Source: Bacteroidia bacterium
Lineage (GTDB): Bacteria > Bacteroidota > Bacteroidia > UKL13-3
Reading direction: 5' to 3'
DNA: 64,000 nt
Assembly (NCBI GenBank): GCA_014376805.1
Contig: JACMQU010000183.1
Span: 1-64,000, forward strand
Shown here: piece by piece, positions 4,177 through 55,687 of the stretch
Position numbering within the stretch: position 1 is the stretch's first letter
How the letters are laid out: each line of letters starts with the position of its first letter
The notes under the pieces: generated by a model
What the model was told of the DNA's origin: nothing
What the model saw: only the letters and a program-made list of their open reading frames with translations
The model's database searches: none
Translations under genes and position numbers: made by a program

Positions 4177-4302
4177 AAAATTAAATGTTGTGGCAACAGG
4201 TTAAAAGAATGAAACGAGAGATAAAGTCAATAAGGTACTTTAAACCGCAAACCGCATCATTCAGCCTTTTTTCCCGAAAGCCACATTGATTTTTTAAATT
4301 AC

Positions 4303-39674: not shown

Positions 39675-39682
39675 TAAATTTG
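39675..39682 (+). promoter_or_regulatory. Candidate -7 promoter element (TAAATTTG)
   Basis: An exact TAnnTTTG ending 18 nt before the ATG at 39701. No TTG at the expected -33. A start codon upstream at the in-frame TTG 39680 would lie inside this element and is therefore rejected. Confidence 0.35.
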
Positions 39683-39700
39683 ATAGGTAAAGATGAACAG

Positions 39701-41599
39701 ATGAGAAAGAAATTAGTGAGGTCACTATTTGTTATACTGTTATTGTTGTGTTCAGCTATTAATACGCTTAAGGCACAGTACAGAAGCGGCTATGATTATT
39801 ATTATGCAGGTCTTGATATGTTGAACCTACATAATTATGCCGCCACAATTTTAATGATGGATAGTGCCGAAGCCGGTGGCGTTGATCTTTTTGATCTCTA
39901 TAACCATAGAGGTATGAGTTACTATAACCTGGGGCAGTATCAACTTGCATTAGACAATTATAACGCTATACTTAAAAAAACAGCACGCTATAAAAGTGCC
40001 TCTGTAAATGCAGCCAATGCCTATTACAAATTAAGTAATTTAATTATGGCCGAAAAAATTGCAATGGATCTTATCTATCAAAAAGTACTGGATGAATATG
40101 CTTATAATATTATCGGGAATATTAACTATAGCAAGAAGCAATATAAATTGGCAATAGATAATTATAGTATAGCCATGCAACTGGATAGTCAACTCTCCTC
40201 ACCATATTATAATTGTGGTATAACCTATTATGAACTTAAGCAATACGACTCTTCCATTTATTATCATCAAATTGCCAGAATTTTAACTCCGGATGATACA
40301 GAAAACTTATATGGTCTGGCACTTGCATTAAGCAGTGTAAAACGAACAGACGAAAGCCTGAAGATCTGCTATGAGATACTTTCACGAGACTCGTTGCATT
40401 ACAAGTCTTATGCGGAGATTGGTTATAACCTGATGCAGGAACCTAATTACAACCCGGATATTGTATCTCCATTTTTGCAGAAAGCTATAACTATGCAACC
40501 ACAGAATACAGGGTATGCATTTAATAATTTAGGGGATGTTTATTTGCGTAAAGGGCTTTATGAACAGGCTCTTATCAGCTACAACAAAGCAATTCAATCT
40601 AATGCCAATAACCCTGAGGCTTATAGCGGAAGAGGCGATGTTTACCGCGATAGTGCTAAATATGAAAATGCAATTCATGATTATATGATTGCGCTATACC
40701 TTGATCCGGAAAATAGTAATGCAAGTCTGGCACTTGGTGGGATGATGTTGCGGATGAACCGGTCTGCTGAGTCTGATAACTATTATAACAGGTACAAAGA
40801 ACTTACACCGAACAAAGAATATGCTTCAAAAATGATGAATAACGCAAGAGGCTATAACGAACTTTTAACCGGACAATATGAGAAGGCGCTGCAAAGCACT
40901 TCCCTTGCGCTCTCCATAGATCCGGATTATGCATTTGCGCTCAACAATAAAGGTATGGCATTTGCAAGGCTTAAGTTTTATGATAGTGCTTTTTATTATT
41001 TAAACAGGTCTGTATTTATTGATCCATATAACTCTTTTGTGTACCATAACCGCGCTTATGTGTATGCTAAAACGGGTAATACAGATATGGCGTGTAAGGA
41101 TCTTAAACGGTTATCTGAAATGAATTATCCGCTAAGAATAGATGCTGCACTGTTTGTTTTGAACCAAAAAAAATGCAAGTATAATTTTAGCAACAGAACT
41201 GATACAATGCTGGTAAAATTTGATGATGTATTGATAGCTGTAAAACGTGATATAGTTATAATAGAAGAGGGTAGAAAAAATAATGGATTTGCAACCTCTA
41301 CTAAAAACTTAGCAGCTTCAGCAAACGTTAATTTTGAAAAGCTGGATGTGATCCAACTTATTGCACCCAACCCGGCAACAGATGAGTTTACTTTGCAGTT
41401 AAAAGGCCGGTTTGGCAAACCATTTATGGTAAACATTGTGGGGATGAACGGGCAGTCTTACAGGCAGTATAATTTTTCTGAATTACAAAAAAGTTCCTTT
41501 AACATATCATGCCGAGAGTGGCCTGTAGGTACTTATGTGATTTTATTAACTGCCGAAAATAAGGAAATTGGCAGAAGCAGAATTGCGGTAATTCGTTAA
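39701..41599 (+). CDS. TPR-repeat protein with T9SS sorting domain
   Basis: A 632-aa secreted protein. Signal peptide (LFVILLLLCSAINTLKAQ), about ten tetratricopeptide repeats from residue 30 to 475 (for example AFNNLGDVYLRKGLYEQALISYNKAI), and a type-A T9SS sorting domain in the last about 75 residues (IAPNPATDEFTLQL ... YVILLTAEN). TPR proteins at the surface usually act as scaffolds. A TPR protein with a T9SS anchor is uncommon outside Bacteroidota. The ATG at 39701 gives the best signal peptide. Confidence 0.85.
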   Translation: MRKKLVRSLFVILLLLCSAINTLKAQYRSGYDYYYAGLDMLNLHNYAATILMMDSAEAGGVDLFDLYNHRGMSYYNLGQYQLALDNYNAILKKTARYKSASVNAANAYYKLSNLIMAEKIAMDLIYQKVLDEYAYNIIGNINYSKKQYKLAIDNYSIAMQLDSQLSSPYYNCGITYYELKQYDSSIYYHQIARILTPDDTENLYGLALALSSVKRTDESLKICYEILSRDSLHYKSYAEIGYNLMQEPNYNPDIVSPFLQKAITMQPQNTGYAFNNLGDVYLRKGLYEQALISYNKAIQSNANNPEAYSGRGDVYRDSAKYENAIHDYMIALYLDPENSNASLALGGMMLRMNRSAESDNYYNRYKELTPNKEYASKMMNNARGYNELLTGQYEKALQSTSLALSIDPDYAFALNNKGMAFARLKFYDSAFYYLNRSVFIDPYNSFVYHNRAYVYAKTGNTDMACKDLKRLSEMNYPLRIDAALFVLNQKKCKYNFSNRTDTMLVKFDDVLIAVKRDIVIIEEGRKNNGFATSTKNLAASANVNFEKLDVIQLIAPNPATDEFTLQLKGRFGKPFMVNIVGMNGQSYRQYNFSELQKSSFNISCREWPVGTYVILLTAENKEIGRSRIAVIR

Positions 41600-42596: not shown

Positions 42597-43217
42597 TTAA
42601 TCAATATAATACATTACCCCTAATTGAAATTTCCATAATTGCACGGGTTTAAAACTTACAAGATCTAAATTGTAACTTTTACCCATACCAAATGAAAGAA
42701 GAACATTATCTCCAATTTGGGTTGAAGCACCAATGTTGGGGAACAAACCGATAAATAAAGAGCTCCGGGTAACATCGGCACTTCTAACGGTTTCAAAATA
42801 AGTGTACTGGTGATAATTAACTATATTCATCCCCGCATCTAAACCAATTGTGGGAGAAAAATTTCTGTCAAGAATTTTATAAGCGAAGGTAGCTGTTAAT
42901 GGAATTACACGGTATGCGTACCAGATATCATAGGCCGGTAGGTATTGCGCAGAACTGCTTCCTGATTGTGTTCCGTAACTAAAAAAAGTATCCTGCCGGG
43001 GTGAAAAAGAATAATATCCAAGGCTAATTCCCCATCTGAACTTGTCATCAATTTCGGCATTATTGGTAATAAATTCAAAACCAACCGTGGGTTTAAACAC
43101 ATAACCCAGGTCTTTAACCGGTTTTATATAAGATACCTGCACGCCTATTTGAGAAAAAGCACTTGATGATATACATAACATGATAACAAATAGGGTTAAG
43201 TTATAGAATTGTTTCAT
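42597..43217 (-). CDS. Outer-membrane beta-barrel protein
   Basis: A 206-aa protein with a signal peptide (cleavage near AFSQ) and alternating hydrophobic strands ending in WKFQLGVMYYID, the aromatic last strand of an 8-strand barrel. No specific family recognised beyond generic OM beta-barrel. It leads a two-gene operon with the fibronectin-like lipoprotein. Confidence 0.75.
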   Translation of the reverse strand: MKQFYNLTLFVIMLCISSSAFSQIGVQVSYIKPVKDLGYVFKPTVGFEFITNNAEIDDKFRWGISLGYYSFSPRQDTFFSYGTQSGSSSAQYLPAYDIWYAYRVIPLTATFAYKILDRNFSPTIGLDAGMNIVNYHQYTYFETVRSADVTRSSLFIGLFPNIGASTQIGDNVLLSFGMGKSYNLDLVSFKPVQLWKFQLGVMYYID

Positions 43218-43316
43218 TGCTTATTTTTTATATTGTACAAATAAAAGGTTTTAATAATTAAATTTTATTTTAAAAGGATCTCGTTGCTATTTATTTTTAT
43301 CATCAATAAAATAAAT

Positions 43317-43345
43317 TTTTTATTGAATGTTGCGCTCAATAAAAA
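43317..43345 (-). terminator. Weak AT-rich terminator after the kdp operon
   Basis: TTTTTATTGA pairs with TCAATAAAAA around a 9-nt loop, 25 nt after the histidine kinase stop codon. The stem is nearly all A/T and followed on the minus strand by an A/T run, so it is a plausible but weak intrinsic terminator. Confidence 0.4.
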
Positions 43346-43369
43346 CAACAATTGGGGCATTCAGTTATT

Positions 43370-45097
43370 TTAGATATTAAGTGAAAAGCTGAATTTGCTC
43401 CCTTCACCTATTATACTTTCTACCATAATTTCACCGCCTTGCGCTTCAATAAATTCTTTACTTATTGAAAGGCCTAAACCAGTTCCCGCTTTGCTGCTAC
43501 CCGGAATCTGAAAGTATCGGGTGAAGATCTTATCTTTATATTTTGCCTCTATTCCTTTTCCATAATCTTTTACTGAAAAAAGCACCGTATCATTAATCTT
43601 ACTTACCTCAATTAGTATTTCACTATGCTCTTTTGAATAACGAATGGCATTGGTTAACAGATTAATCAATACCCAAGCAGTTTTCTCTGTGTCTGCTTTC
43701 ACGGATGGTAATTGGTCATCAGCCGTAACATTTAATTTAATGCTTTTTTGATCCGCCTCCATTTTAACAGCTTCAAGGGCATAATGTAAAATTTTGTTTG
43801 GATCACCCGATTGAATGTTTAAATGAATATTACCGGTTTCAACTTGCGATAAATTAAGAAGTTCACCAATAATTTTTAACAGCCTGTTGCTATCTTCTTT
43901 AATGCTCGTGATCAGTTCTTTTTGATCATCGTTTATAACTCCCGTATTTTTGTTTTCGAGTAATTGTAAACTTGCCTTAATAGCTGAAATGGGAGTCTTT
44001 AATTCATGCGAAATCGTGGCAATAAAATTGGTTTTAGCAAAGTCTAATTCTTTAAAGGGTGTGATGTTATTTAATACAATGAATAGACCAATATGTTGAG
44101 CTTCTTTTTCGCCCGTGGGTATAATCGAAATATTTACTATTTCCTTTTCAAAATAGCTTTCTTTATTATCAGCATAGATTTTTAAAGGTTTATTATTTTG
44201 TATTTCAATATTGCGTTCGTTAATCAAACTTTGTAAGAGCGATCGCATCAAATCATTTGTTAAGGCAATGTCCTGTGCGGGTTTATCAATTAAGTCTTCT
44301 GCTTTAAGGCCTAAAATTTTAAGCGCCTCATCATTAACAAATAAAATTATTTTATTTTCATCAAACCCAATTACCGGATCATGCATGTTGTTAATGAGCA
44401 TTTCTATTCTCTTCTTTTCAAACATAAGTTTGGCAAGGTTGCTACTATTATATTCCTGAAGTTTTTCAGCCATAATATTAAAAGAAGTAGCAAGTTCTCC
44501 AAATTCATCATCCCTTTCAAAATTAATACGTTCCTTGTAATTCATGGAAGCAATTTGTTTAATGCTTTGCGTAAGTTCTTTAATAGGATTTGCAATATTA
44601 CCGGGTAAATTAAAAATAAGAATGAGCGAAATTACAAAACAAAAAGTTCCTGTGAGGGCAATTAACAGAGTGGAATCAGTTGCCTGTTGTTTGGCAACAT
44701 TACTTTTGCGTTCTATAGCCTGCATATTAAGAAGCATAATATCGGTAAGATCTTTTCTGATAAACAGGAGTAGCGATTCATCTTTTCGATAGACTTTCAG
44801 TTTTTCAAAATCCTGTGCTAATTTTTCTGTCAGTTCTTTTTCACCAATTTCGGTTATGTTATAATTTTGTTTTGCCAGATTACTTTCAAACTTATTTAAA
44901 GCATTTTTATTTGTTTCAACTTCGTCTAAAGCGATTAACATATTTCTTGTATAATCAAGGGTATTGTAATTGGCCACGAGAATATTATTTGTAGCAGCCG
45001 ATAGGGCATTTATTTCTCTTGCTCCTAAGGCTGCAAGCAATATGATAAGGATAAAAAGAGATCCTATTCCCAAAAGTAATTTCGCCTTTATTTTCAT
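43370..45097 (-). CDS. PAS/HAMP sensor histidine kinase of the kdp locus
   Basis: A 575-aa membrane kinase. Two hydrophobic segments (residues 6-24 and 143-165) enclose a periplasmic helical domain; then HAMP (about 165-220), PAS (about 230-345), HisKA with SHELKTP (phospho-His364) and a HATPase with NLLTNAIRYSK and GTGLGLSIS. It overlaps the truncated KdpD gene by one base (TAATG), so both are made together. It probably replaces the kinase half of classical KdpD and phosphorylates the NtrC-type regulator at 52758; that pairing is inferred from locus order. Confidence 0.88.
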   Translation of the reverse strand: MKIKAKLLLGIGSLFILIILLAALGAREINALSAATNNILVANYNTLDYTRNMLIALDEVETNKNALNKFESNLAKQNYNITEIGEKELTEKLAQDFEKLKVYRKDESLLLFIRKDLTDIMLLNMQAIERKSNVAKQQATDSTLLIALTGTFCFVISLILIFNLPGNIANPIKELTQSIKQIASMNYKERINFERDDEFGELATSFNIMAEKLQEYNSSNLAKLMFEKKRIEMLINNMHDPVIGFDENKIILFVNDEALKILGLKAEDLIDKPAQDIALTNDLMRSLLQSLINERNIEIQNNKPLKIYADNKESYFEKEIVNISIIPTGEKEAQHIGLFIVLNNITPFKELDFAKTNFIATISHELKTPISAIKASLQLLENKNTGVINDDQKELITSIKEDSNRLLKIIGELLNLSQVETGNIHLNIQSGDPNKILHYALEAVKMEADQKSIKLNVTADDQLPSVKADTEKTAWVLINLLTNAIRYSKEHSEILIEVSKINDTVLFSVKDYGKGIEAKYKDKIFTRYFQIPGSSKAGTGLGLSISKEFIEAQGGEIMVESIIGEGSKFSFSLNI

Positions 45098-46233
45098 TAT
45101 GATAGAATTACAATATCAACATCTGTTCCCGTTAGTTTTTTAAGTAACTGGTCAAACAGCGTATTGTTTAAAATAGATTTTAAAAGATTAGACTCAGGTT
45201 TGCCAATGCAGATGGTCGTAATCTTATTCTTTACAACAACTTCCAACATAATTTGTGGTATGTTGTTGCTTTCAATTTTTATTACCTCTGCTCCAAGCTC
45301 ATTAGCCAGCTTATAGTTATTTATAAGATATCGTTGTTTAACCAATGAAATCTTAGTAGAACTTTCTGATGGTGTTTGTACATAAAGCATAAGCCACTTA
45401 CTATTGTAATAATGCGCAAGCCTTGCTGTTTTACGGATAATTGTTTTTGCAGCTATTTCATTACTGCTGATGCAAGCTAAAAATCGTTCCTGCCTAAGTA
45501 TAATATTTTTTGGAATTTCTGTTTCAACTTTCCTGAGTACCTGAGTAGCCACTTCTTTTAATGCCAATTCGCGGAGTTGAAGAATATGTTCCGGCTTAAA
45601 AAAATTTTGCAGGGCTGTTGCTATTTTTTCTGCCTGATAAATTTTCCCTTCTTTTAAGCGCATTATCAATTCATCGGCAGTTAAATCTATGTTTACTACT
45701 TCATCTGCCAATCCAATTACTTTATCGGGAACGCGCTCTCTTACTTCTATTCCGGTTATTTCTTTTACATGTTCATTGAGGCTTTCAATATGTTGAATGT
45801 TTACAGCGCTGATCACATTAATTCCTGCCTCTAATATCTCAAGTACATCCTGCCAGCGTTTTTCATTTTTACTTCCTTCAATATTGGTATGAGGCAGTTC
45901 ATCTATTATTACCACTTCAGGTCGTAAATTAATTACTGCCTGCATGTCTAACTCTTCAAGTTCTTTACCTTTATAAAATAATTTGCGTCTCGGTATAACA
46001 GGTAGCCCGGCTAACAGATCGTGCGTCTCTTTGCGGTTATGTGTTTCTATAAATCCAATTTTTACATCAATACCATTTCTTAACAAAGCATGAGCCTCTT
46101 GTAACATCCTGTATGTTTTGCCCACACCGGCACTCATACCAATATAAATCTTAAACTTACCTCGCCTCGACTTTTTAATTAAGTTTAGGAAGTGTTGTAC
46201 GTTTTGTTCTTTAGTTTCTGCTTCTTCCGGCAT
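45097..46233 (-). CDS. kdpD: Truncated KdpD: sensor and Usp domains only
   Basis: A 378-aa protein. Residues 20-220 are the KdpD N-terminal domain with GMSAGVGKT (Walker A, 32-40), ELPHTN and RWQDVLEILEAGINVISAVNIQHIESL. Residues about 240-378 are a Usp-like domain. The membrane DUF4118 and kinase parts of classical KdpD are absent; a separate kinase follows with one base overlap. I chose ATG 46233 because the longer frame opens with a TTG at 46278. Expected role: cytosolic K+/ATP sensing that tunes the adjacent kinase. Confidence 0.9.
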   Translation of the reverse strand: MPEEAETKEQNVQHFLNLIKKSRRGKFKIYIGMSAGVGKTYRMLQEAHALLRNGIDVKIGFIETHNRKETHDLLAGLPVIPRRKLFYKGKELEELDMQAVINLRPEVVIIDELPHTNIEGSKNEKRWQDVLEILEAGINVISAVNIQHIESLNEHVKEITGIEVRERVPDKVIGLADEVVNIDLTADELIMRLKEGKIYQAEKIATALQNFFKPEHILQLRELALKEVATQVLRKVETEIPKNIILRQERFLACISSNEIAAKTIIRKTARLAHYYNSKWLMLYVQTPSESSTKISLVKQRYLINNYKLANELGAEVIKIESNNIPQIMLEVVVKNKITTICIGKPESNLLKSILNNTLFDQLLKKLTGTDVDIVILS

Positions 46234-46355
46234 GTGTTGTTTTTTGTTGACAAACCTTTTAACTTTGCTGCTTATCAAATGTAAATCTTACCAGTTTTTA
46301 ATTCTATACACAACCAGTTTGCAATTAAGCATAGTTTAATTACTCAAATTATTTT

Positions 46356-47432
46356 TTAAAAATGCAGGCACAATGAAGTTGTAATAAAGTAATTTTGGGT
46401 AGACGGCTTATTTTCTAAGCTAAAAATTTTATCCTTACTGCTTAGCGCTCTTCCTTCAATACGAAACATAATATTATTTGCAGGTAGATAATCATAATTT
46501 AGCGAATAGCCAATAGTCTGAAATCCATTTGGTGTTCTTGTGGCAATAATAACACCTTTCTCATCAGAATAGTATTCAGCCCTTGCACCAATACGAATTT
46601 TTGAGTTTGGTTTATACAGCAATATAATGATAGGTGAATACAAGGTATTATAGCTATTTGTATCCTTGGTTTTTTGTTGAATTCCTATGTCAAAACCAGC
46701 AGTTACTCCAAACTTTTCAGTTATTTGAAATTGACCATAAAAGTTATTATAATACCTCATCAATTTTAAACTGTCGGGCTGCTCATTGCCAGCATAAGTA
46801 CTCCAGTTTAGTGTTATAGTTGAGGTAGGTTTATAGGTAAGTTGTGTGCCAAAAGCCGGGGTTTGATTTGCCGGAACCCGTTGTATGCGTTGCCACCCGT
46901 TTAGGTACATAACGGCTAAATATAACTTGTCGTTTTTGGTTGTGTAGCCAAGCTTAACACCGGCTTCAAAATAGGGTGTGTTGTCTGCTAACAAACTTCG
47001 CGTTAAATTCCAACAATCTTTACCAATAGAACTTTCAAATCCAATGTGTGATGGCATTATCCCAGCATCAACCCACAGGTTATTATTTTTCGAAATTTTA
47101 AAACCAGCATTTGCTTCAAAAATATTTCGCAATAAACCCTGTTCACCTGCAAGATTGTATTGCGCGTATGTTCCACCCATCAAAGCGAAATTGCCTCTCA
47201 CATTATCCAATGAATAATTTGCTTTTACAAAACCAATATTCAGGTTTGCTTCATTATGCCGGTTAAAACTATAAAAAAATGAAGGTCTCTCGTGATTAAC
47301 GGGATTTCCTAAATCGTAACTGTAATAAAGTTCAACGTATCCTGAAAAAGTTAAGGCTTTTGTTTTTAAGGTATCTTGTGCATATACTTTTGTTAAAACT
47401 AAAGCCAATGCAATGAGAATTGTTTTTTTCAT
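46356..47432 (-). CDS. Outer-membrane porin in the kdp operon
   Basis: A 358-aa beta-barrel protein with signal peptide (ending VYAQ) and strands such as TFSGYVELYYSYDLGNP, NYSLDNVRGNFALMGGTYAQYN and a final FITTSLCLHF. It resembles the putative OmpL-like/BBP2 porins of Bacteroidota. It sits between kdpC and the sensor genes, so it is presumably induced at low K+. A porin that lets K+ through the outer membrane as part of the Kdp response is a reasonable inference, without direct evidence. Confidence 0.75.
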   Translation of the reverse strand: MKKTILIALALVLTKVYAQDTLKTKALTFSGYVELYYSYDLGNPVNHERPSFFYSFNRHNEANLNIGFVKANYSLDNVRGNFALMGGTYAQYNLAGEQGLLRNIFEANAGFKISKNNNLWVDAGIMPSHIGFESSIGKDCWNLTRSLLADNTPYFEAGVKLGYTTKNDKLYLAVMYLNGWQRIQRVPANQTPAFGTQLTYKPTSTITLNWSTYAGNEQPDSLKLMRYYNNFYGQFQITEKFGVTAGFDIGIQQKTKDTNSYNTLYSPIIILLYKPNSKIRIGARAEYYSDEKGVIIATRTPNGFQTIGYSLNYDYLPANNIMFRIEGRALSSKDKIFSLENKPSTQNYFITTSLCLHF

Positions 47433-47453
47433 TTATCTTTAAATTTATGATTA

Positions 47454-48017
47454 TTAATTAAGATTATCCAAAGCAATATTTAATTTCAAAACGTTTATTT
47501 TTTCTGGTCCAAAGAAACCTAATAACGACTTCTCTTTTTGTTCAATGATAAGTGACTTAAGTTTATCTTCATTCATACCTCTTATTTTCGCAATTCGTTT
47601 TACCTGTATAAGTGCAGCAGAACTGGAAATATCTGGATCTAGCCCACTGCCTGATGCCGTTACCATTTCAACTGGAATTTCACTTTTACTTATTCCGGGA
47701 TTACGAACTAAAAACGAATCAATTCGTTCTTTAACAAGTATAAGATATTCTGCGTTAGATGGACCTTTATTACTTGCTCCGCTTCCATCTGCGTTGTAGT
47801 TCACTGCAGAAGGGCGAGAGTTGAAATACCGGTCGGCGGTAAATTTTTGACCAATATTTTCGTAACCTACCGTTATCCCGTGTTGCGTTAATTTTTTCCC
47901 CTTACCACCCCCGGGAGTTGCTTGCGCAATGAATAATATAACAAGCGTGTATATTCCTGAAAAAAGCAGGAGTGTAAGAAGTGTTAATTTGAGTGTTTGA
48001 AATAGAATATTTTTCAT
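47454..48017 (-). CDS. kdpC: K+-transporting ATPase subunit KdpC
   Basis: A 187-aa protein with one N-terminal membrane helix (residues 9-32) and a periplasmic domain: RYFNSRPSAVNYNADGSGASNKGPSN and VTASGSGLDPDISSSAALIQVKRIAK, both KdpC signatures. It stabilises the KdpA-KdpB complex. The gap to kdpB is 19 nt and to the porin gene 21 nt. Confidence 0.95.
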   Translation of the reverse strand: MKNILFQTLKLTLLTLLLFSGIYTLVILFIAQATPGGGKGKKLTQHGITVGYENIGQKFTADRYFNSRPSAVNYNADGSGASNKGPSNAEYLILVKERIDSFLVRNPGISKSEIPVEMVTASGSGLDPDISSSAALIQVKRIAKIRGMNEDKLKSLIIEQKEKSLLGFFGPEKINVLKLNIALDNLN

Positions 48018-48036
48018 TTTAAAATTGTTTAGATAT

Positions 48037-50076
48037 TTAGATGAATACTGAAACGAAAAGGTCGATAATCTTTATCCCTGCAAAGGGTATGATGATTCCG
48101 CCTAAACCATAAATAAGCAGGTTTCTGCGCAGTAAAGCACTTGCACCAATAGGTTTATAAGCTACACCTTTTAGAGCCAGTGGAATCAATAGTGGAATAA
48201 TGATCGCATTAAAAATAATTGCGGCTAAGATTGCACTTTCGGGACTATGCAGGTTCATAATATTTAACGGCCGCAAAGCAGGGATTGAAGCAATAAATAA
48301 AGCCGGAATGATTGCAAAATATTTTGCCACATCATTTGCAATTGAAAATGTTGTAAGTGTGCCTCTGGTCATCAATAACTGTTTCCCTATTTCAACGATC
48401 TCAATAAGTTTGGTTGGATCATTGTCAAGGTCAACCATATTACCGGCTTCCTTAGCAGCCTGTGTTCCACTGTTCATGGCCACGCCTACATCTGCTTGAG
48501 CCAAAGCCGGCGCATCGTTTGTTCCATCACCCATCATTGCTACCAACCTGCCTTCACTTTGTTCCTTTTTGATGTAGTTCATTTTGTCTTCCGGTCTTGC
48601 TTCGGCAATAAAATCATCAACGCCTGCCGCTTCAGCAATAAATTTTGCGGTGAGGGGGTTATCACCTGTTACCATTACTGTTTTAATTCCCATTTTGCGT
48701 AAACGTTGAAAACGTTCCTGAATACCTGGCTTAATTATATCCTGCAATTCAATAACACCAATAACCTTTTCGTTTTCACAAACAACAAGAGGCGTTCCAC
48801 CATTACTGGATATTATGTTTACTTTTTGTTCCACTTCAACAGGAAAGATATTACCAGCCCTTTCAGTAAGTTTTCTAATTGCATCAGTTGCACCTTTTCT
48901 GATCCGCGTATTTTCAAAATCGATGCCCGAACTTCTTGTTTCTGCGGTGAATTTTATGAAGGTTGGCGTTGCTATAATAAAATCGGAAATTTTAAGATGC
49001 GACAGTTCGATAATAGATTTTCCTTCCGGGGTTTCATCGGCCATGGAAGCAAGTGCGGCAGATTTAATAAATGCTTTTTCATTCACATCTGTGGCGGGGT
49101 AAAAATGCGTTGCTTTCCTATTACCAATTGTTATTGTTCCGGTTTTATCTAATAACAGTACATCTATATCTCCTGCTGTTTCAACTGCTTTGCCCGATTT
49201 AGTAATTACATTAGCACGCAATGCCCTGTCCATACCTGCAATACCAATAGCAGATAATAAGCCCCCAATTGTTGTTGGGATCAAACAAACAAATAGTGAA
49301 ATAAAAGCGGCAATGGTAATAGGTGTATTGGCATAATCGGCAAAAGGTTTTAAAGTTACACATACAATAATAAACACCAAAGTAAACCCTGCAAGTAAAA
49401 TTGTTAAGGCAATTTCGTTGGGTGTTTTTTGCCTGCTTGCGCCTTCTACTAAAGCAATCATTTTATCAAGAAACGACTCACCCGGCTCAGTAGTAACCTG
49501 CACTTTTATTTTATCTGAAAGAACTTTTGTACCGCCGGTAACACTTGATTTATCCCCACCTGCTTCTCTGATGACGGGAGCAGACTCACCAGTGATAGCA
49601 GATTCGTCAATGGTTGCAAGTCCTTCTATAATTTCTCCATCGGTTGGGATAATATCTCCTTCTTCGCAAATAAAAATATCGCCTTTTATTAAACTAGAAG
49701 AGGGAACAACTTTTATTTCGTTTACATACATTTCTCCAACAGAAAATATTTTTTTGGCTGGTGTTTCTTCCCGGGTTTTTCTTAATGATTCTGCTTGCGC
49801 TTTTCCTCGGGCTTCTGCAATCGCTTCCGCAAAATTTGCAAATAGTAATGTGAGTAATAATACAATGAAAACAACAAAGTTATAGCCAAAACTGCCTTGG
49901 TTATTTTCACCGGAAAGAATCCACAAACAAACGATCAACATGATAGCTGTTCCAATTTCAACGGCAAACATAACGGGGTTGCGAAACATCATTCTTGGAT
50001 CAAGCTTGATAAAAGATTGCCTTAAAGCCTCATTTAACAATTGCTTTTCGAACAAGGTTGTATTTTTATTTTTCAT
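48037..50076 (-). CDS. kdpB: K+-transporting P-type ATPase subunit KdpB
   Basis: A 679-aa P-type ATPase. Visible: TGES (162-165, A-domain), DKTGT (phospho-Asp310), [31 protein letters not shown] and [24 protein letters not shown]. It hydrolyses ATP to drive K+ through KdpA. The inhibitory Ser of E. coli KdpB TGES (Ser162) is conserved as the final Ser of TGES here. 13 nt separate it from kdpA. Confidence 0.97.
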
Positions 50077-50089
50077 TAGAATTTTTTAA

Positions 50090-51778
50090 TTATAACATGG
50101 AGAAATACTCGGCAATTGGACCTAATGTTAAAGCAGGGAAAAACGCTAATGCTGCAACAAGAAGAATTACCGCAAGCACCATTAAACCAAATGTACTTGT
50201 ATCTGTTTTTAAAGTTCCACCGCCTTCTGGAATATATTTTTTATTCGCTAATAATCCTGCAATTGCAATTGGACCGATGATGGGTAAGAAGCGGGACAGG
50301 ATCAATACAAAACCGGTGCTTATATTCCACCATGGAGTATTATCGGCTAAGCCTTCAAAGCCGCTTCCGTTATTTGCTGCTGATGACGTAAACTCATATA
50401 GCATTTCGCTAAAACCGTGAAATCCGGGATTATTAAGTGTAGCCGAAGTATAAGCTGGCAATGCAGTTGAAAGAGCGGTTCCAACAAGAATCAGGAAAGG
50501 GTGAAGCAAGGCAATGATCATCGCTATTTTCATTTCCCTCGCCTCTATTTTTTTACCCATAAACTCAGGGGTTCTTCCTACCATTAATCCACTGATAAAT
50601 ACAGCCAGGATAACGAAGATGAAATAATTGAGGATTCCTACACCGCATCCTCCATAAAAACAATTGATCATCATGGCCAGTAATTGATTCATGCCTGAAA
50701 GGGGCATAAAACTATCATGAAATGAATTCACTGATCCTGTAGAAATTACAGTTGTAACAATACTCCAGAACGCAGATGTTATTGCTCCGAATCTTACTTC
50801 TTTGCCTTCCATTGCCCCACTGCTCATATCTATACCCATGGCTGCAATTGCCGGATTTCCGTTGGCTTCCATAAAAATATTTGGTATAACGAGCGCAAGA
50901 AATCCTATAGTCATAACACCGAAGGTTATCCATGCAAATTTTCTGCGTTTCAGAAAAAAACCAAGAGCAAAAATAATCGCAAAAGGAATGATTAACTGAG
51001 CAATCATTTCTGTTATGTTTGTTAAGTAATTTGGATTTTCGAATGGGTGTGCAGCGTTAGCTCCAAAAAATCCACCCCCATTTGTACCAACGTGCTTTAT
51101 TGCCACAAATGCCGCAGCAGGCCCAGTTGATACCTGCACGGTGTCACCCTGTAAGGAGATGATGGTATCTTTACCGTGTAGGGTCATTGGAGTGCCGTTA
51201 AACACAAGAATAACAGCAACCACTAATGATATAGGTAACAAGATTCTGGTGCATGATTTCAGAAAGAAATTGTAAAAATTTCCAAGCTTATCTGTTGTAC
51301 GTTCTTTTAATGCAGTAAACAAAACCGCCGCCGCTGCCATACCAATACCTGCCGAAACAAATTGCAGAAACATCAGAAAAAGTTGGGATAGATAACTTAC
51401 GCCACTTTCGCCTGAGTAATGTTGTAAATTACAATTTACTACAAATGAAATTGATGTATTAAATGCCAGGTGAGCTGACTGACCCGGATTTCCATCTGGG
51501 TTTAGTGGCAACCAATGTTGGTTCATTAGCACAAACATTCCTAATAAAAACCAAACCATGTTTAGCGTGAGCATCACAACTAAATGTTGTTTCCAGTTCA
51601 TTTCTGTCGTAGGATCAATACCGCTGATGCGGTAAAAGAGTTTTTCAACAGGCCCGAAGATCCCGTCGAGCCAGGTTTTATCCTGCGTATAAACTTTAGC
51701 AATATACTTACCCAGTGGAATTGCCAACGCAAGCGCTGCAACAAACATGAGTATGATTCCAGGTATTTCTGTATTCAT
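50090..51778 (-). CDS. kdpA: K+-transporting ATPase subunit KdpA
   Basis: A 562-aa channel-like subunit with about ten membrane helices and four selectivity-filter-like P-loops, including HVGTNGGGFFGANAAHPFENP and NCNLQHYSGESGVSYLSQ. KdpA is the K+-selective pore of the KdpFABC complex. It is preceded by the small kdpF and other peptide genes, and followed 13 nt later by kdpB. Confidence 0.97.
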   Translation of the reverse strand: MNTEIPGIILMFVAALALAIPLGKYIAKVYTQDKTWLDGIFGPVEKLFYRISGIDPTTEMNWKQHLVVMLTLNMVWFLLGMFVLMNQHWLPLNPDGNPGQSAHLAFNTSISFVVNCNLQHYSGESGVSYLSQLFLMFLQFVSAGIGMAAAAVLFTALKERTTDKLGNFYNFFLKSCTRILLPISLVVAVILVFNGTPMTLHGKDTIISLQGDTVQVSTGPAAAFVAIKHVGTNGGGFFGANAAHPFENPNYLTNITEMIAQLIIPFAIIFALGFFLKRRKFAWITFGVMTIGFLALVIPNIFMEANGNPAIAAMGIDMSSGAMEGKEVRFGAITSAFWSIVTTVISTGSVNSFHDSFMPLSGMNQLLAMMINCFYGGCGVGILNYFIFVILAVFISGLMVGRTPEFMGKKIEAREMKIAMIIALLHPFLILVGTALSTALPAYTSATLNNPGFHGFSEMLYEFTSSAANNGSGFEGLADNTPWWNISTGFVLILSRFLPIIGPIAIAGLLANKKYIPEGGGTLKTDTSTFGLMVLAVILLVAALAFFPALTLGPIAEYFSML

Positions 51779-51799
51779 TTTTTTTAAATAATTAAGTAT

Positions 51800-51912
51800 T
51801 CATATTTTTTTGATAAAAATGATAAGCATAGAAAAAATCATACTCACTAATAGTAGAATAATTTCTCTAAGAGGATAATAATGAGTTGATTTTTGTCTGT
51901 ATTTATTTTCAT
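51800..51912 (-). pseudogene. Probable frameshifted small membrane-peptide ORF between kdpF and kdpA
   Basis: The frame ending with TGA at 51800-51802 encodes a basic head, KYRQKSTHYYPLREIILLLVS, then a hydrophobic helix and IKKI. This looks like a real single-pass peptide. It lacks an ATG in frame; the ATG at 51912 is in another frame that stops early. Adding one A in the A/T run after that ATG would restore MKNKYRQKS... So the gene is either frameshifted here, translated from ATT/by slippage, or a base is missing in the sequence. Confidence 0.45.
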
Positions 51913-51918
51913 TTTTAA

Positions 51919-51996
51919 TTAAAATTTTTCAGGTTTTATAAGCACATAACACATGTACAAAAACACTGCGATTGCAATGATGAATAATACTATCAT
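51919..51996 (-). CDS. kdpF: KdpF, 25-aa membrane peptide
   Basis: ATG at 51996 opens a 25-codon frame on the minus strand: one hydrophobic helix (MIVLFIIAIAVFLYMCYVL) and the ending IKPEKF. This matches KdpF, the small stabilising subunit of the K+ ATPase, in length and C-terminal motif (E. coli KdpF ends ...LINAEAF). It lies 140 nt before kdpA. Confidence 0.85.
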   Translation of the reverse strand: MIVLFIIAIAVFLYMCYVLIKPEKF

Positions 51997-52043
51997 AGTT
52001 TTTAGTTTTTATATTTTTCGGATCCAAAGTGGACCAATCAGTG

Positions 52044-52130
52044 TTAAATGTTTTCGAAATAATTAACTGCTTTATAAAAAAGAACGAAGCATAAAACACC
52101 TCCAAGAACCAATAAAATTGTTGTTATCAT
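52044..52130 (-). CDS. 28-aa single-pass membrane peptide, KdpF-like
   Basis: ATG at 52130 opens 28 codons ending at TAA 52044: a hydrophobic run (ITTILLVLGGVLCFVLF) followed by YKAVNYFENI. It sits directly before kdpF, between the 138-aa gene and kdpA. It does not end with the KdpF motif but has the same plan. It could be a second regulatory or assembly peptide for the Kdp complex; this role is inferred from position. Confidence 0.6.
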   Translation of the reverse strand: MITTILLVLGGVLCFVLFYKAVNYFENI

Positions 52131-52167
52131 AATTTCTGTATTTTAATATAGGTCATCACTAAATAAT

Positions 52168-52584
52168 TTAAAGGCCGCTTGCGTTAACCTGCAGATCATT
52201 CTCTTTATGCAAAGGTGCAGGCAACATGTTTTTTAATACTGCATTTGTTGGTTCGCTTACATCTAAGCGCGTAGATAGAGAAAACAGGTACACTTTTCCG
52301 ATGGCATTTTTTACAATGTTATTTCCTTCTTTTAATAGCTTACCGGCAAACATAAAACAATGTTTCACTTCAGTTAAATTACTTGTTGAGGCTAATTGCT
52401 TGGTAAAATCTGCAAAACAATACATTGCTGCATATACATTATTAGCGATAGGTGTTTTTTTCAATATAGATTTAATTGCAGGTAATTCATTTCCTGGCAA
52501 AAAACCGATTTCATCTTCTTTAATTTTCTTTGAATTAATTAAAATTTCCGTGCTTTCATTTAATAGTTCGAATGTCTTGTTCAT
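52168..52584 (-). CDS. Uncharacterised 138-aa protein, first gene of the kdp operon
   Basis: A 138-aa, mainly helical protein without a signal peptide (ELLNESTEILINSKKIKEDEIGFLPGNELPAIKSILKKTPIANNVYAAMYCFADFTKQL...). Two Cys occur at about 56 and 75. I do not recognise the family. It lies between the sigma-54-type promoter (52625-52639) and the kdp peptide genes, so it should be transcribed with them and probably concerns K+ response. Confidence 0.7.
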   Translation of the reverse strand: MNKTFELLNESTEILINSKKIKEDEIGFLPGNELPAIKSILKKTPIANNVYAAMYCFADFTKQLASTSNLTEVKHCFMFAGKLLKEGNNIVKNAIGKVYLFSLSTRLDVSEPTNAVLKNMLPAPLHKENDLQVNASGL

Positions 52585-52624
52585 AGTTAATGTAAGTGTT
52601 ATATACGTTAGGCTTACACTATGG

Positions 52625-52639
52625 GCAAACTATGAACCA
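52625..52639 (-). promoter_or_regulatory. Candidate sigma-54 (-24/-12) promoter of the kdp operon
   Basis: The minus strand reads TGG-TTCATAGT-TTGC, with exact GG-N10-GC spacing of -24/-12 promoters (consensus TGGCACG-N4-TTGC; GG and GC kept, CACG partly lost). It lies 41 nt upstream of the start of the 138-aa gene and just downstream of the gene for an NtrC-type activator, which requires such a promoter. RpoN itself is not in the window. Confidence 0.6.
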
Positions 52640-52716
52640 TTAGCAACATGAATGATATAGGGCCTGTGAATAAGGCATATATATTCATTTTTATATAATT
52701 TTTGGATAAATAAAGT

Positions 52717-52731
52717 CTATCAATATGATAG
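52717..52731. promoter_or_regulatory. Palindrome upstream of the sigma-54 promoter, possible activator site
   Basis: CTATCA-ATA-TGATAG, a perfect 6-bp dyad, centred about 90 bp upstream of the -24/-12 element in the short gap after the regulator gene. NtrC-type activators bind dyads at such distances. Only one site is evident; a second partial GATAGG/GGATAGG lies next to it. Confidence 0.4.
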
Positions 52732-52757
52732 GCTTTTCTCATTTTGGATAGGAGATA

Positions 52758-54104
52758 TTAATTTAGCCCATACTCTTCAAGTTTGCGATATAAGGTTGCA
52801 ACTCCTATTTCTAATAGCCTTGCAGTTTCGGCTTTATTACCTTTAGCATACTTTAATACTTTTTGGATATGTTGCTTTTCTACACCAGTCATTGCAAAAG
52901 CAGAAAATGCACCGTTAGTTTTTACCGGTTGATTTTGGAGTTCGTAAGGCAGGAGCGATATAGTAAGATTATTTGTGGTTGATAGTATTACACTGCGTTC
53001 AATTATATTTTTTAATTCTCTGATATTGCCCGGCCAGGTATATTTTTCCAATATTTCAACATATTCCTGCGAAACAGATAATGATTTTTTATTTGTTTTG
53101 GCCGAATACTCTAAGACGAAAAATTTTATTAAGGATTCAATGTCTTTTACTCTTTCTCTTAAAGGCGGTAAATGAATTTGAAAAACATTAAGCCTGTAGT
53201 AAAGGTCTGAACGAAAATGTTTTTCCTCACTTTCTTTTTTTAAGTCGCGGTTCGTCGCAGCAATAAGTCTGAAACTTACTTTTGTGATTTTAGTATCTCC
53301 GAGTTTTATAAATTCATTTGTTTCCAAAACACGGAGTAACTTGGCTTGTAATTCAACAGGCATTTCACCAATTTCATCTAAGAATAAGGTTCCTCCATTA
53401 GCTTCTTCAAGCAACCCTTTCTTATCTTTCACAGCACCCGTAAATGCACCTTGTTTGTAACCGAATAATTCACTTTCAATAATCTCTTTACTAAAAGTAC
53501 TGCAGTTAAGGGCAACGAAAGTTTTGTTTGCTCTGCTGCTAGCATTGTGTATGGCATGTGCAAATACTTCTTTCCCTGTTCCGGTTTCACCGGTTAATAA
53601 AACAGTTGTGTCATTAGGGGCAACTTTTTTCGCTAGTTCAATAGCTTCCAGTATATTATTTGACCGTCCTATAACTGTTAAAAATGAAAATTTATCGTTC
53701 ACTTTTTTCTCGAGTTCATTTACTCTTTTCTGTAACTGCGCTTTCTCTACTGCACGGCTTAGTAATGGTATAATTCTTTCATGATCATCGCCCTTGGTTA
53801 TATAATCAAAAGCACCGTTCTTAATTGCCTGCACCCCATCAGGTATATTGCCATAAGCAGTAAGCAAAATAATCTCGGTAAACGGGCAGAGGTTCTTTAT
53901 GTTATTTATTAAATCCAGCCCGTTCCCATCAGGCAATTTAACATCGCAAAGAACAGCATCAATTTCGTGTTGCTCTAGTTTTTTTAAAGCAGTTTTACAA
54001 TCAGGCGCTTCAAATACTTCATACCCTTCCGAACTGATAATTCGCCCAAAAAGATTCCGGAGTTTTTCATGATCATCAACGATAAGAATATTCCCTTTTT
54101 TCAT
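52758..54104 (-). CDS. NtrC-family sigma-54-dependent response regulator of the kdp locus
   Basis: A 448-aa regulator. Receiver domain (1-120) with phospho-acceptor Asp54 in VLCDVKLPDGNG; AAA+ domain with GETGTGKE (172-179), GAFTGA (219-224, contacts sigma-54) and GGTLFLDE (237-244); and a C-terminal Fis-type helix-turn-helix (GNKAETARLLEIGVATLYRKL). Start chosen at ATG 54104 (MKKGNILIVDD...) since a promoter element lies 5 nt upstream. In E. coli the kdp regulator KdpE is an OmpR-type protein, so an NtrC type here is notable. Confidence 0.93.
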   Translation of the reverse strand: MKKGNILIVDDHEKLRNLFGRIISSEGYEVFEAPDCKTALKKLEQHEIDAVLCDVKLPDGNGLDLINNIKNLCPFTEIILLTAYGNIPDGVQAIKNGAFDYITKGDDHERIIPLLSRAVEKAQLQKRVNELEKKVNDKFSFLTVIGRSNNILEAIELAKKVAPNDTTVLLTGETGTGKEVFAHAIHNASSRANKTFVALNCSTFSKEIIESELFGYKQGAFTGAVKDKKGLLEEANGGTLFLDEIGEMPVELQAKLLRVLETNEFIKLGDTKITKVSFRLIAATNRDLKKESEEKHFRSDLYYRLNVFQIHLPPLRERVKDIESLIKFFVLEYSAKTNKKSLSVSQEYVEILEKYTWPGNIRELKNIIERSVILSTTNNLTISLLPYELQNQPVKTNGAFSAFAMTGVEKQHIQKVLKYAKGNKAETARLLEIGVATLYRKLEEYGLN

Positions 54105-54109
54105 TGGAT

Positions 54110-54117
54110 CAAAGTTA
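54110..54117 (-). promoter_or_regulatory. Candidate -7 promoter element (TAACTTTG)
   Basis: An exact TAnnTTTG on the minus strand ending 5 nt before the ATG at 54104. It would give the NtrC-type regulator a separate, near-leaderless transcript and so allow constitutive supply of the activator. Confidence 0.4.
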
Positions 54118-54253
54118 CAATATTCCAATTGGAACTAATTAAAAGTATGTTTGAATATTGTATTAGGCTATTTCAGATATCAACAAATACTCAAAACTTC
54201 CGTTTCACATTCCCCCTCAAATTCCTTACAATTGATGCGTTAATATTAATAAC

Positions 54254-55687
54254 ATGGCATTAAGCAGATTTTGGTCCTATATTATTGTTTGCAGTATTGT
54301 TTATATTTTTTATATGCTGTTAACAGGTGGCATGTATAGTTTAGGAAGTCTGGTAAATGGTAAACAAAATGATCCGCTTGTGGTGGCTGAATTTACAACA
54401 GCCGCACTCAAACAACACGACTCAGTTTTGTTTAGCGGAATAGCTGCAAATAAGGGTTCAGGCCTGCAACATGGAGATACTTTATATCGCTTGCTCGATA
54501 ACGGCATCATAGAAGCCAGCGTTGGTAAACAGGCAGCAGATGGAATTTTTGCTACGTGTAAAAATACAATCATGGATATATGGTTGCCGCTTATAGGTTA
54601 TCTTACTTTTTTTTGCGGTCTGCTTAATTTATTAAATGATTCAAATGCCATCCGCAAATTAGCAGGATTATTGGCTCCTTTTTTTATACGTATTTTCCCT
54701 GATCTGCCTAAGGGGCATTCTGCTTATGGTTATATGACGATGAATTTTGCTGCAAACTTTTTGGGTCTTGATAATGCTGCAACACCCTTTGGCTTAAAAG
54801 CCATGGAAAGTATGCAGGACGTTAATGAAGAAAAAGACAAAGCTTCCAATAGTCAGATTATGTTTCTGTGTTTGCATGCTGCAGGTTTAACGTTAATTCC
54901 AACTTCCATTATTGGTTACAGGGCTGCACAAAATGCGGCTAATCCTGCAGATATTATGTTGCCTTGTATTATCACCTCTTTTATTGGAACGCTGGCCGCT
55001 TTAATCTTTGTAAGCATTAAACAACGCATCAATTTAATTAACCTGGTGGTGTTAGGTTTTGTATGCGGGGTGAGTGCAGTTGTTGGTTTTCTGTTATTTT
55101 ACGTAAACAAATTAAATGGCATCGAAAAATTTCATTTTACAGGAAACCTAAGCAATGGGGTGTTACTTTTTATCATCTTATTGATAGTAGCTTATTGCAT
55201 TTTTCATGAAAAAATATTTAAGCTGAACCAAACAAATATTTTCGATTCTTTTGTTAATGGCGCAAAAGATGGATTTACAACTGGTGTGCGTGTTTTGCCT
55301 TATATGATTGCCATGTTAGTTGCCTTATGTATCTTTCGTAACTCAACTCTTATGACCATCGTAATGAATGGCATTGCATCCATGTTAAATGTATTCAGGG
55401 TTGATCCCGAAGTTATCAATGCGATACCTGTTGCCATTATGCGTCCGTTTAGCGCAGGAGGTTCACGCGGCTTTATGTTAGATGCCATGAAAACCTACGG
55501 GCCGGATAGTTTAACCGGGCAATTATCTTGTCTTTTTCAGGGTGCTGCTGAAACAACTTTTTATGTAGTGGCTTTATATTTTGGTTCAGTAGGGGTAAAA
55601 AACACACGCTATACTTTAGGCATTATGTTGCTGGTAGATCTGGTGTGTGTACTAAGTGGAATCTTTGTATGTAAATTGTATTTTTAA
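54254..55687 (+). CDS. Nucleoside-recognition (Gate) membrane protein, SpmA/SpmB-fusion type
   Basis: A 477-aa protein with about ten hydrophobic segments. Two Gate domains: residues about 100-260 (IMDIWLPLIGYLTFFCGLLNLL, GYMTMNFAANFLGLDNAATPFGLKAM) and 330-477 (GFTTGVRVLPYMIAML, MRPFSAGGSRGFMLDAMKTYGPDSL, AAETTFYVVALYFGSVG). These are the SpmA and SpmB signatures fused in one chain, a common Bacteroidota form. Function in non-sporulating bacteria is unknown. It is transcribed divergently from the kdp regulator. Confidence 0.85.
   Translation: MALSRFWSYIIVCSIVYIFYMLLTGGMYSLGSLVNGKQNDPLVVAEFTTAALKQHDSVLFSGIAANKGSGLQHGDTLYRLLDNGIIEASVGKQAADGIFATCKNTIMDIWLPLIGYLTFFCGLLNLLNDSNAIRKLAGLLAPFFIRIFPDLPKGHSAYGYMTMNFAANFLGLDNAATPFGLKAMESMQDVNEEKDKASNSQIMFLCLHAAGLTLIPTSIIGYRAAQNAANPADIMLPCIITSFIGTLAALIFVSIKQRINLINLVVLGFVCGVSAVVGFLLFYVNKLNGIEKFHFTGNLSNGVLLFIILLIVAYCIFHEKIFKLNQTNIFDSFVNGAKDGFTTGVRVLPYMIAMLVALCIFRNSTLMTIVMNGIASMLNVFRVDPEVINAIPVAIMRPFSAGGSRGFMLDAMKTYGPDSLTGQLSCLFQGAAETTFYVVALYFGSVGVKNTRYTLGIMLLVDLVCVLSGIFVCKLYF

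Follow-up and report, generated by a model that had tools for sequence, protein, structure and literature searches.

The textbook control system of the KdpFABC potassium pump, KdpD/KdpE of Escherichia coli K-12, combines a full-length sensor kinase with the OmpR-type response regulator KdpE. Other arrangements have been described. In Desulfovibrio vulgaris Hildenborough the NtrC-family protein DVU3334 regulates its own kdp operon (PMC3333781), and it is given elsewhere with a GAFTGA motif and the description "potassium uptake" (PMC4641369); beyond Hildenborough, orthologs of DVU3334 are reported there only from D. vulgaris Miyazaki and from S. fumaroxidans. Here we analyze the kdp locus at positions 43370-54104 of a 64,000-nucleotide (nt) stretch, referred to below as the window, of contig JACMQU010000183.1 (GCA_014376805.1; Bacteroidia bacterium, UKL13-3). 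From its gene content and conserved control sites we consider it likely that this operon responds to K+ stress and is controlled in two independent ways, one acting on transcription through sigma-54 and the other acting on pump activity through a short KdpD.

The window shares with E. coli the pump and the N-terminal domain of KdpD. Its likeness to D. vulgaris is closer, in that there too a GAFTGA-containing NtrC-family regulator controls kdp and KdpD is divided between two reading frames; in D. vulgaris, however, the regulator is encoded within the kdp operon itself, which is a target of two further regulators as well, and the kinase is interpreted as the detached half of KdpD. In the window, by contrast, the regulator gene stands ahead of the predicted kdp promoter, the kinase is of a HAMP-PAS type, and the locus includes a porin and a DUF7674 protein. 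In Deinococcus radiodurans, too, KdpD is truncated and the kinase and response regulator are encoded separately, and deletion of the regulator stops kdp induction; this regulator is reported to be 23.9% identical to E. coli KdpE, and "NtrC" does not appear in the main text of that paper (PMC5716572).

A short KdpD has also been described in the phylum itself. The accessible passages of PMC11018627 identify the N-terminal domain of KdpD as a serine kinase that inactivates KdpB, list Bacteroidota with the phyla in which the KdpD + Usp form predominates, and place short KdpDs mostly in species without KdpE; like the window protein, these consist of KdpD and Usp parts only and have Walker A and B motifs. 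The same passages give no controller of kdp transcription in Bacteroidota, a gap that an NtrC-type regulator and kinase pair with its site would fill. No description of sigma-54/NtrC-type kdp control in Bacteroidota was recognized among the matches listed from the open-access literature, a search from which subscription journals and preprints mostly fall outside, and kdp and potassium are absent from the main text of a comparison of sigma-54 regulons (PMC12316311). The original prediction, which called the locus an undescribed system, was thus too strong: NtrC-type control of kdp, with at least one characterized precedent, and split KdpD are published for D. vulgaris, and short KdpD is published for Bacteroidota. 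The predicted Bacteroidota circuit, with its putative enhancer, its promoter and their spacing, was not found in print within the literature searched.

The genes, the conserved repeat, the promoter-like element and the spacing between them can be read directly from the DNA (Table 1). The genes lie on the minus strand, from 54128 down to 43370, in the order NtrC-type response regulator, DUF7674, a 28-residue peptide, a 25-residue peptide, KdpA, KdpB, KdpC, BBP2 porin, a 393-residue KdpD and a membrane histidine kinase. KdpA, KdpB and KdpC all score above Pfam or NCBIfam cut-offs. The regulator has the NtrC-family architecture, with a receiver (Response_reg, E 2e-27), an AAA+ domain (Sigma54_activat, E 1.3e-70) in which GAFTGA is read, and a Fis-type helix-turn-helix (HTH) domain (HTH_8). 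An activator of this kind, a truncated KdpD and a separate PAS kinase had been proposed from the sequence, and domain matches (Sigma54_activat, KdpD, and HAMP/PAS/HisKA/HATPase_c) bear all three out. The proposed absence of a KdpD/KdpE pair holds as well: the KdpD has no kinase half, and no KdpE was found among the open reading frames and domains of the locus, to which that search was confined. The proposed porin is present (BBP2, E 2e-105), and the "several" small membrane peptides number two (28 and 25 residues). DUF7674, the -24/-12 site and the inverted repeat described below were not listed in the original prediction.

Two samples of kdp loci underlie our comparisons. A scan with the short KdpD across 84,980 species, one genome per species, returned at least 571 relatives, the best 80 of which were kept as related loci. 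Independently of KdpD and of regulators, 198 genomes drawn evenly across Bacteroidota were searched for KdpA, which was found in 53 (52 above the cut-off, one of them the window genome), and one stretch was fetched from each of the other genomes above the cut-off to give 51 survey loci. A regulator ortholog (at least 50% identity and at least 90% coverage) is present in 59 of the 80 related loci, and some of the remaining stretches stop at a contig end. In the survey, for which the criterion was at least 50% identity, 21 of 51 loci combine the NtrC-type regulator with a KdpD of 372-426 residues and lack KdpE; 11 have KdpE with a KdpD of 881-901 residues and no such regulator. The two forms never co-occur within the fetched survey stretches. 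A further 17 loci, all of family f17 (L146-L164 except L148 and L155), carry a KdpD of 551-579 residues, with a kinase and, in 16 of the 17, a distant NtrC-type protein (35%-40% identity) upstream of kdpA; this arrangement is perhaps a second, separate sigma-54 solution. Two loci were left unclassed, L118 (two kdpA genes and a 42% identical NtrC-type protein) and L120 (ends at the contig). The gene set is neither a product of chance nor peculiar to the window genome, as it recurs both in related loci and in 21 survey loci chosen without regard to the regulator.

The DNA ahead of kdp carries an inverted repeat, the predicted enhancer. We compared 57 regions running from the regulator stop codon to the kdpA start, one from the window and the others from 56 of the related loci. 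Gapped words counted blindly across these regions returned the repeat, as AGCCTATCA-N3-TGATAGGCT or ACCCTWTC-N5-GAWAGGGT, together with the KdpF-like coding sequence, whose C-terminal half contributes DNA words (ATGT-N8-AACC and neighbors) that are among the most over-represented. At thresholds of at least 12, at least 13 and all 14 of 14 degenerate consensus bases, the repeat is present in 55, 52 and 38 of the 57 regions, whereas 20 shuffles yielded on average 3.1, 0.25 and 0 (maximum 7 at the lowest threshold). On both strands of all 80 loci (1.46 Mb), the looser repeat occurs in 56 loci, with a single copy in each; 54 of these copies lie within 1.2 kb upstream of kdpA, and that of L076 lies 1.4 kb upstream. 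The strict form CCTATCA-N3-TGATAGG, from which the window copy differs by one base, is found at three places in the 198 whole genomes, in every case some 0.4-0.7 kb ahead of kdpA, and its reversed control has no match in these genomes. In the survey the looser repeat marks 10 of the 21 NtrC-type loci versus 0 of the 30 others. The repeat is nearly restricted to kdp.

Further targets of the regulator are unsupported. Repeat and promoter pattern together give 14 sites in 247 genomes versus 10 for the reversed control; five of the 14 are at mapped kdp loci and nine elsewhere (of the genomes concerned, only G064 was searched for kdpA, with no match). A second repeat-like site in the window genome (G000:C121) has no GG-N8-[AT]TG within 150 nt. 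In locus L006, a match to the repeat pattern at about 2437 precedes the regulator gene itself, which might reflect autoregulation there.

Downstream of the repeat, at an almost fixed distance, stands a sigma-54-like element. GG-N8-[TA]TG starts 75-79 nt past the end of the repeat in 47 of 55 regions, compared with 13 of 2083 other five-base windows. At 74-78 nt the count is 48 of 55, and five more regions have it at 97-101 nt, a shift of roughly two turns of the helix; one of these five, L051, is a wrongly picked repeat copy, and the correct copy gives the usual spacing. The consensus is TTGGAACA-N4-TTTGGCATAAG, and bases outside the search pattern are also conserved (C at +14 in 43, A at +15 in 46 and T at +16 in 43 of 53). 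The window element has the textbook form TGG-TTCATAGT-TTGC, and GG-N8-TTGC occurs in seven other regions. The shorter pattern TGG-N8-TTG is present in 35 of the 57 regions (mean 9.2 and maximum 19 in 200 shuffles); it is this looser pattern, and above all its fixed distance from the repeat, that stands out. We read the element as a sigma-54 promoter because it stands where other relatives have textbook sites. As far as can be judged from DNA, then, the target carries the -24/-12 promoter and upstream enhancer of NtrC-family systems. The window genome has one copy of rpoN (G000:C51, E 4e-52), a test that does not discriminate, as 51 of 51 other kdp genomes carry the gene. The sigma-54 control put forward in the original prediction is well supported by the conserved control sites and rpoN, and stays a prediction.

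The recognition helices of the regulators also vary together with the repeat, though with exceptions. GAFTGA is read in 70 of the 80 kdp-linked regulators and GSFTGA in six; it was not found in four, one of which reads GAFTSA. The nearest paralog of the regulator in the window genome is 38%-40% identical over the full length (47% over a partial match). Recognition helices with ARLLEIG[IV]A go mostly with AGCYTATCA, those with LL[NG]IALT with ACCCT[AT]TC, and those with LL[NG]IGLT with ACC[CT]TTCCA. Reduced to glutamate or not in the helix, and G or C at base 2 of the repeat, the two agree in 66 of 69 loci (exceptions L127, L139 and L076), whereas 10,000 shuffles give at most 48; this count leaves out 11 of the 80 rows because their repeat arms were unclear or did not agree, including L006, whose left arm also disagrees, and at least one retained row, L136, has a doubtful repeat. 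Among independent pairs, two differ in helix type, and the repeat follows in 1.4 of them on average and opposes in 0.1.

The second proposed arm rests on the short KdpD. The window protein, of 393 residues, has the KdpD domain only and departs from the full-length form in having no kinase half; its Usp half is assigned from alignment with full-length KdpD (residues 4-372 of PRK10490), no separate Usp model having matched. Its catalytic motifs are kept, namely G-x5-GKT (GMSAGVGKT), DE and R190, with tyrosine replacing W39. The serine of the KdpB TGES motif, the published site of inhibitory phosphorylation, is present in the window, in all 70 related loci read and in 50 of the 51 survey loci. 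By homology to the published enzyme, the truncated KdpD is probably a pump-inactivating serine kinase rather than a broken transcriptional K+ sensor.

Its signal may be the published one or another. One Deinococcus short KdpD is stimulated by cyclic di-adenosine monophosphate (c-di-AMP), according to the available part of PMC11018627. The Firmicutes-derived Usp motif for c-di-AMP, as given in the accessible part of PMC8214093, is missing from the window KdpD and from all 21 KdpDs of the NtrC-type survey loci, and equally from that of D. radiodurans. A DAC-family cyclase was found in 10 of the 21 NtrC-type genomes and not found in another 10, all rated 100% complete; G142 has a weak partial match. 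The published c-di-AMP control is hard to hold for those 10 genomes because no DAC-family cyclase was found in them. None was found in the 88.5% complete assembly of the window genome either. A real loss of diadenylate cyclase there is the less likely reading: DAC-family cyclases occur in 48 of the 58 genomes of the family sample, and the absence is probably an assembly gap because all 12 other sampled members of the genus have the enzyme.

Several observations weigh against these assignments. The base after TTG is C, as in the window, in only 8 of 53 elements; in 38 it is G, and most of these read TTGGCA, which exceeds the textbook TTGC by one base. Across 36 genomes the long TTGGCA form has seven matches (reversed control 0), none of them at kdp and five inside reading frames of at least 100 residues, which gives no independent support for a general sigma-54 promoter of this form. 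TGG-N8-TTGC by itself is not above chance in the window (15 versus 11.8 expected, with as many in 21 of 100 shuffles) or in the regions, where 6 of 57 have it (2.6 on average and at most 10 after shuffling), and TGG-N10-TTGC is common as well, with 15 of 57. Of the 21 NtrC-type survey loci, 11 lack the looser repeat, five of which have variant repeats (L125, L130, L132, L144 and L155) and six a weak repeat or none. On the KdpB tree, helix type changes only four times and the repeat base six times, and among four independent pairs differing in the repeat base the helix differs in about one; independent support for co-variation of helix and repeat, as estimated from these sequences, is small, with too few events for significance. 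Finally, the short KdpD scores 355 bits on NCBIfam NF038185 (KdpD_non_kinase), below the cut-off of 550, although this is still its best-scoring model.

Table 1. Features of the kdp locus, in order of transcription (window coordinates; strand in parentheses)
Feature	Position	Basis or remark
NtrC-type response regulator: receiver, AAA+ with GAFTGA, Fis-type HTH	52758..54104 (-) from ATG, the limit in the original prediction; 52758-54128 from first TTG	
Inverted repeat AAAAGCCTATCATATTGATAGACTTT, predicted enhancer for the NtrC-type regulator	52712..52737 (-)	sequence conservation
Sigma-54 -24/-12-like element TGGTTCATAGTTTGC	52625..52639 (-)	GG 77 nt past repeat core; end 40 nt ahead of DUF7674 ATG
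DUF7674 protein, predicted first operon gene, all-helical model	52168..52584 (-)	
28-residue membrane peptide MITTILLVLGGVLCFVLFYKAVNYFENI	52044..52130 (-)	real reading frame
25-residue KdpF-like membrane peptide MIVLFIIAIAVFLYMCYVLIKPEKF	51919..51996 (-)	KdpF name from position and size, not from a model
KdpA	50090..51778 (-)	E 2e-228
KdpB, with TGES motif	48037..50076 (-)	above TIGR01497 cut-off
KdpC	47454..48017 (-)	E 1e-62
BBP2 outer-membrane porin	46356..47432 (-)	E 2e-105
Short KdpD (KdpD and Usp halves only), predicted KdpB serine kinase	45097..46278 (-)	KdpD domain E 1e-91; no kinase half
Membrane histidine kinase: helical N-terminal sensor, HAMP, PAS, HisKA, HATPase_c	43370..45097 (-)	last gene

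The histidine kinase, the predicted partner of the NtrC-type regulator, is 50%-65% identical to 24 orthologs, in which its histidine is invariant; a structural model has a helical N-terminal sensor at a predicted local distance difference test score of 79 and a predicted template-modeling score of 0.41, with domain placement uncertain. Of the 21 NtrC-type loci, 13 have a BBP2 porin of at least 41% identity in the interval from kdpC to kdpD, and three more have weak matches (23%-26%). DUF7674 precedes kdpA in seven of the 21, all of genus code g6. The family is tied to kdp operons among 25 aligned sequences, the window included, and in L072 (8990-9400) it lies between kdpC and kdpD; a fold search with DUF7674 gave no PDB match at E<=0.001.

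Considered together, these features suggest the following circuit. The membrane kinase would sense a K+ or turgor signal and phosphorylate the NtrC-type regulator, which, once phosphorylated, would bind the inverted repeat (52737-52712) and remodel RNA polymerase-sigma-54 at the -24/-12 element (52639-52625). This would turn on the whole set of downstream genes, from DUF7674 and the two peptides through kdpABC and the porin to the short KdpD and the kinase, with positive feedback because the kinase sits within the operon that it would activate. When K+ is plentiful, the short KdpD, having no transcriptional role, would phosphorylate the KdpB TGES serine and the pump would stop. In this scheme we infer the single transcript, the binding of the regulator, the dependence on sigma-54, the pairing of kinase and regulator and the signal, as well as, from the published enzyme, the serine-kinase activity of the short KdpD.

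The repeat could also be explained as nothing but the terminator of the regulator gene, with the kdp operon read from another promoter. It can fold as a terminator hairpin with a T-run directly behind the regulator gene, the window copy was marked as resembling a terminator, and in most loci the repeat lies 20-70 nt past the regulator stop. Yet 9 of 55 regions have 226-1701 nt between that stop and the repeat, while the distance to GG-N8-[TA]TG stays at 74-78 nt in 48 of 55; the repeat precedes kdp in L017, and a near copy of it does so in L009, although the stretches fetched for these two loci showed no regulator gene upstream; and the sequence of the repeat, not just its pairing, is conserved and tracks the HTH type. 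We regard a terminator-only role as very unlikely, and a repeat serving both as terminator and as enhancer as possible. Still less credible is that kdp is under housekeeping control with an unlinked regulator, the NtrC-type gene being a neighbor that acts elsewhere. The window genome does contain other response regulators, but this one is linked to kdp in 59 of the 80 related loci, with contig ends truncating some of the rest, and in 21 of 51 survey loci, which speaks against such an accident, as does the confinement of the strict repeat to the DNA ahead of kdpA in the 198 genomes. The housekeeping promoter TTTG-N17-21-TANNTTTG is found in none of the 57 regions, and a relaxed form in one.

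The arm acting on pump activity has a rival of its own, in which the short KdpD is the cytoplasmic K+- or c-di-AMP-sensing subunit of the neighboring kinase, a split KdpD whose role is transcriptional and which does not phosphorylate KdpB. The two genes adjoin, with a one-base overlap in the window, and the similar arrangement in D. vulgaris is interpreted as a split KdpD in the available part of PMC3333781. The kinase, however, is unlike the C-terminal half of KdpD, having HAMP and PAS domains and no GAF match, and both the serine-kinase motifs of the short KdpD and the target serine of KdpB are kept. We find the split-sensor explanation doubtful and prefer a short KdpD that acts on the pump.

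The family of the window genome seldom has kdp: KdpA was found in 2 of 58 genomes, the window genome and G425, while the 12 other members of the genus gave no match. Acquisition of the window locus as a self-contained module is possible, as is a misplaced contig in this assembly of 183 contigs; G+C content is even across the window (0.33-0.38). A Parabacteroides distasonis plasmid (NZ_OY725790.1, L204) carries kdpABC, a short KdpD and a kinase, and the only NtrC-like piece found in that stretch (4087-4272) is a 61-residue HTH remnant that matches residues 413-455 of the window regulator at 58% identity. No riboswitch was matched in Rfam at E<=1 over 43000-54600. The divergent neighbor of the regulator gene (54254-55687) encodes a membrane protein with two Gate (nucleoside recognition) domain matches. 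On the other side, a TPR-like protein (39680-41599) has a C-terminal end that resembles, and may be, a type IX secretion sorting domain.

The locus offers a concrete circuit of kinase, activator, enhancer and promoter for kdp transcription in Bacteroidota, predicted from sequence. It would be an apparent single-target sigma-54 circuit, with an activator-enhancer pair that differs between species. More tentatively, and as a possibility that we rate below even, a large part of Bacteroidota may have fully uncoupled the jobs of KdpD, with a dedicated sigma-54 pair and a kdp-only enhancer, co-changing with the recognition helix, as the on switch and a stand-alone KdpD serine kinase as the off switch; in cyclase-less Flavobacterium-type members that kinase would then answer a signal other than c-di-AMP, perhaps via the neighboring kinase or DUF7674.

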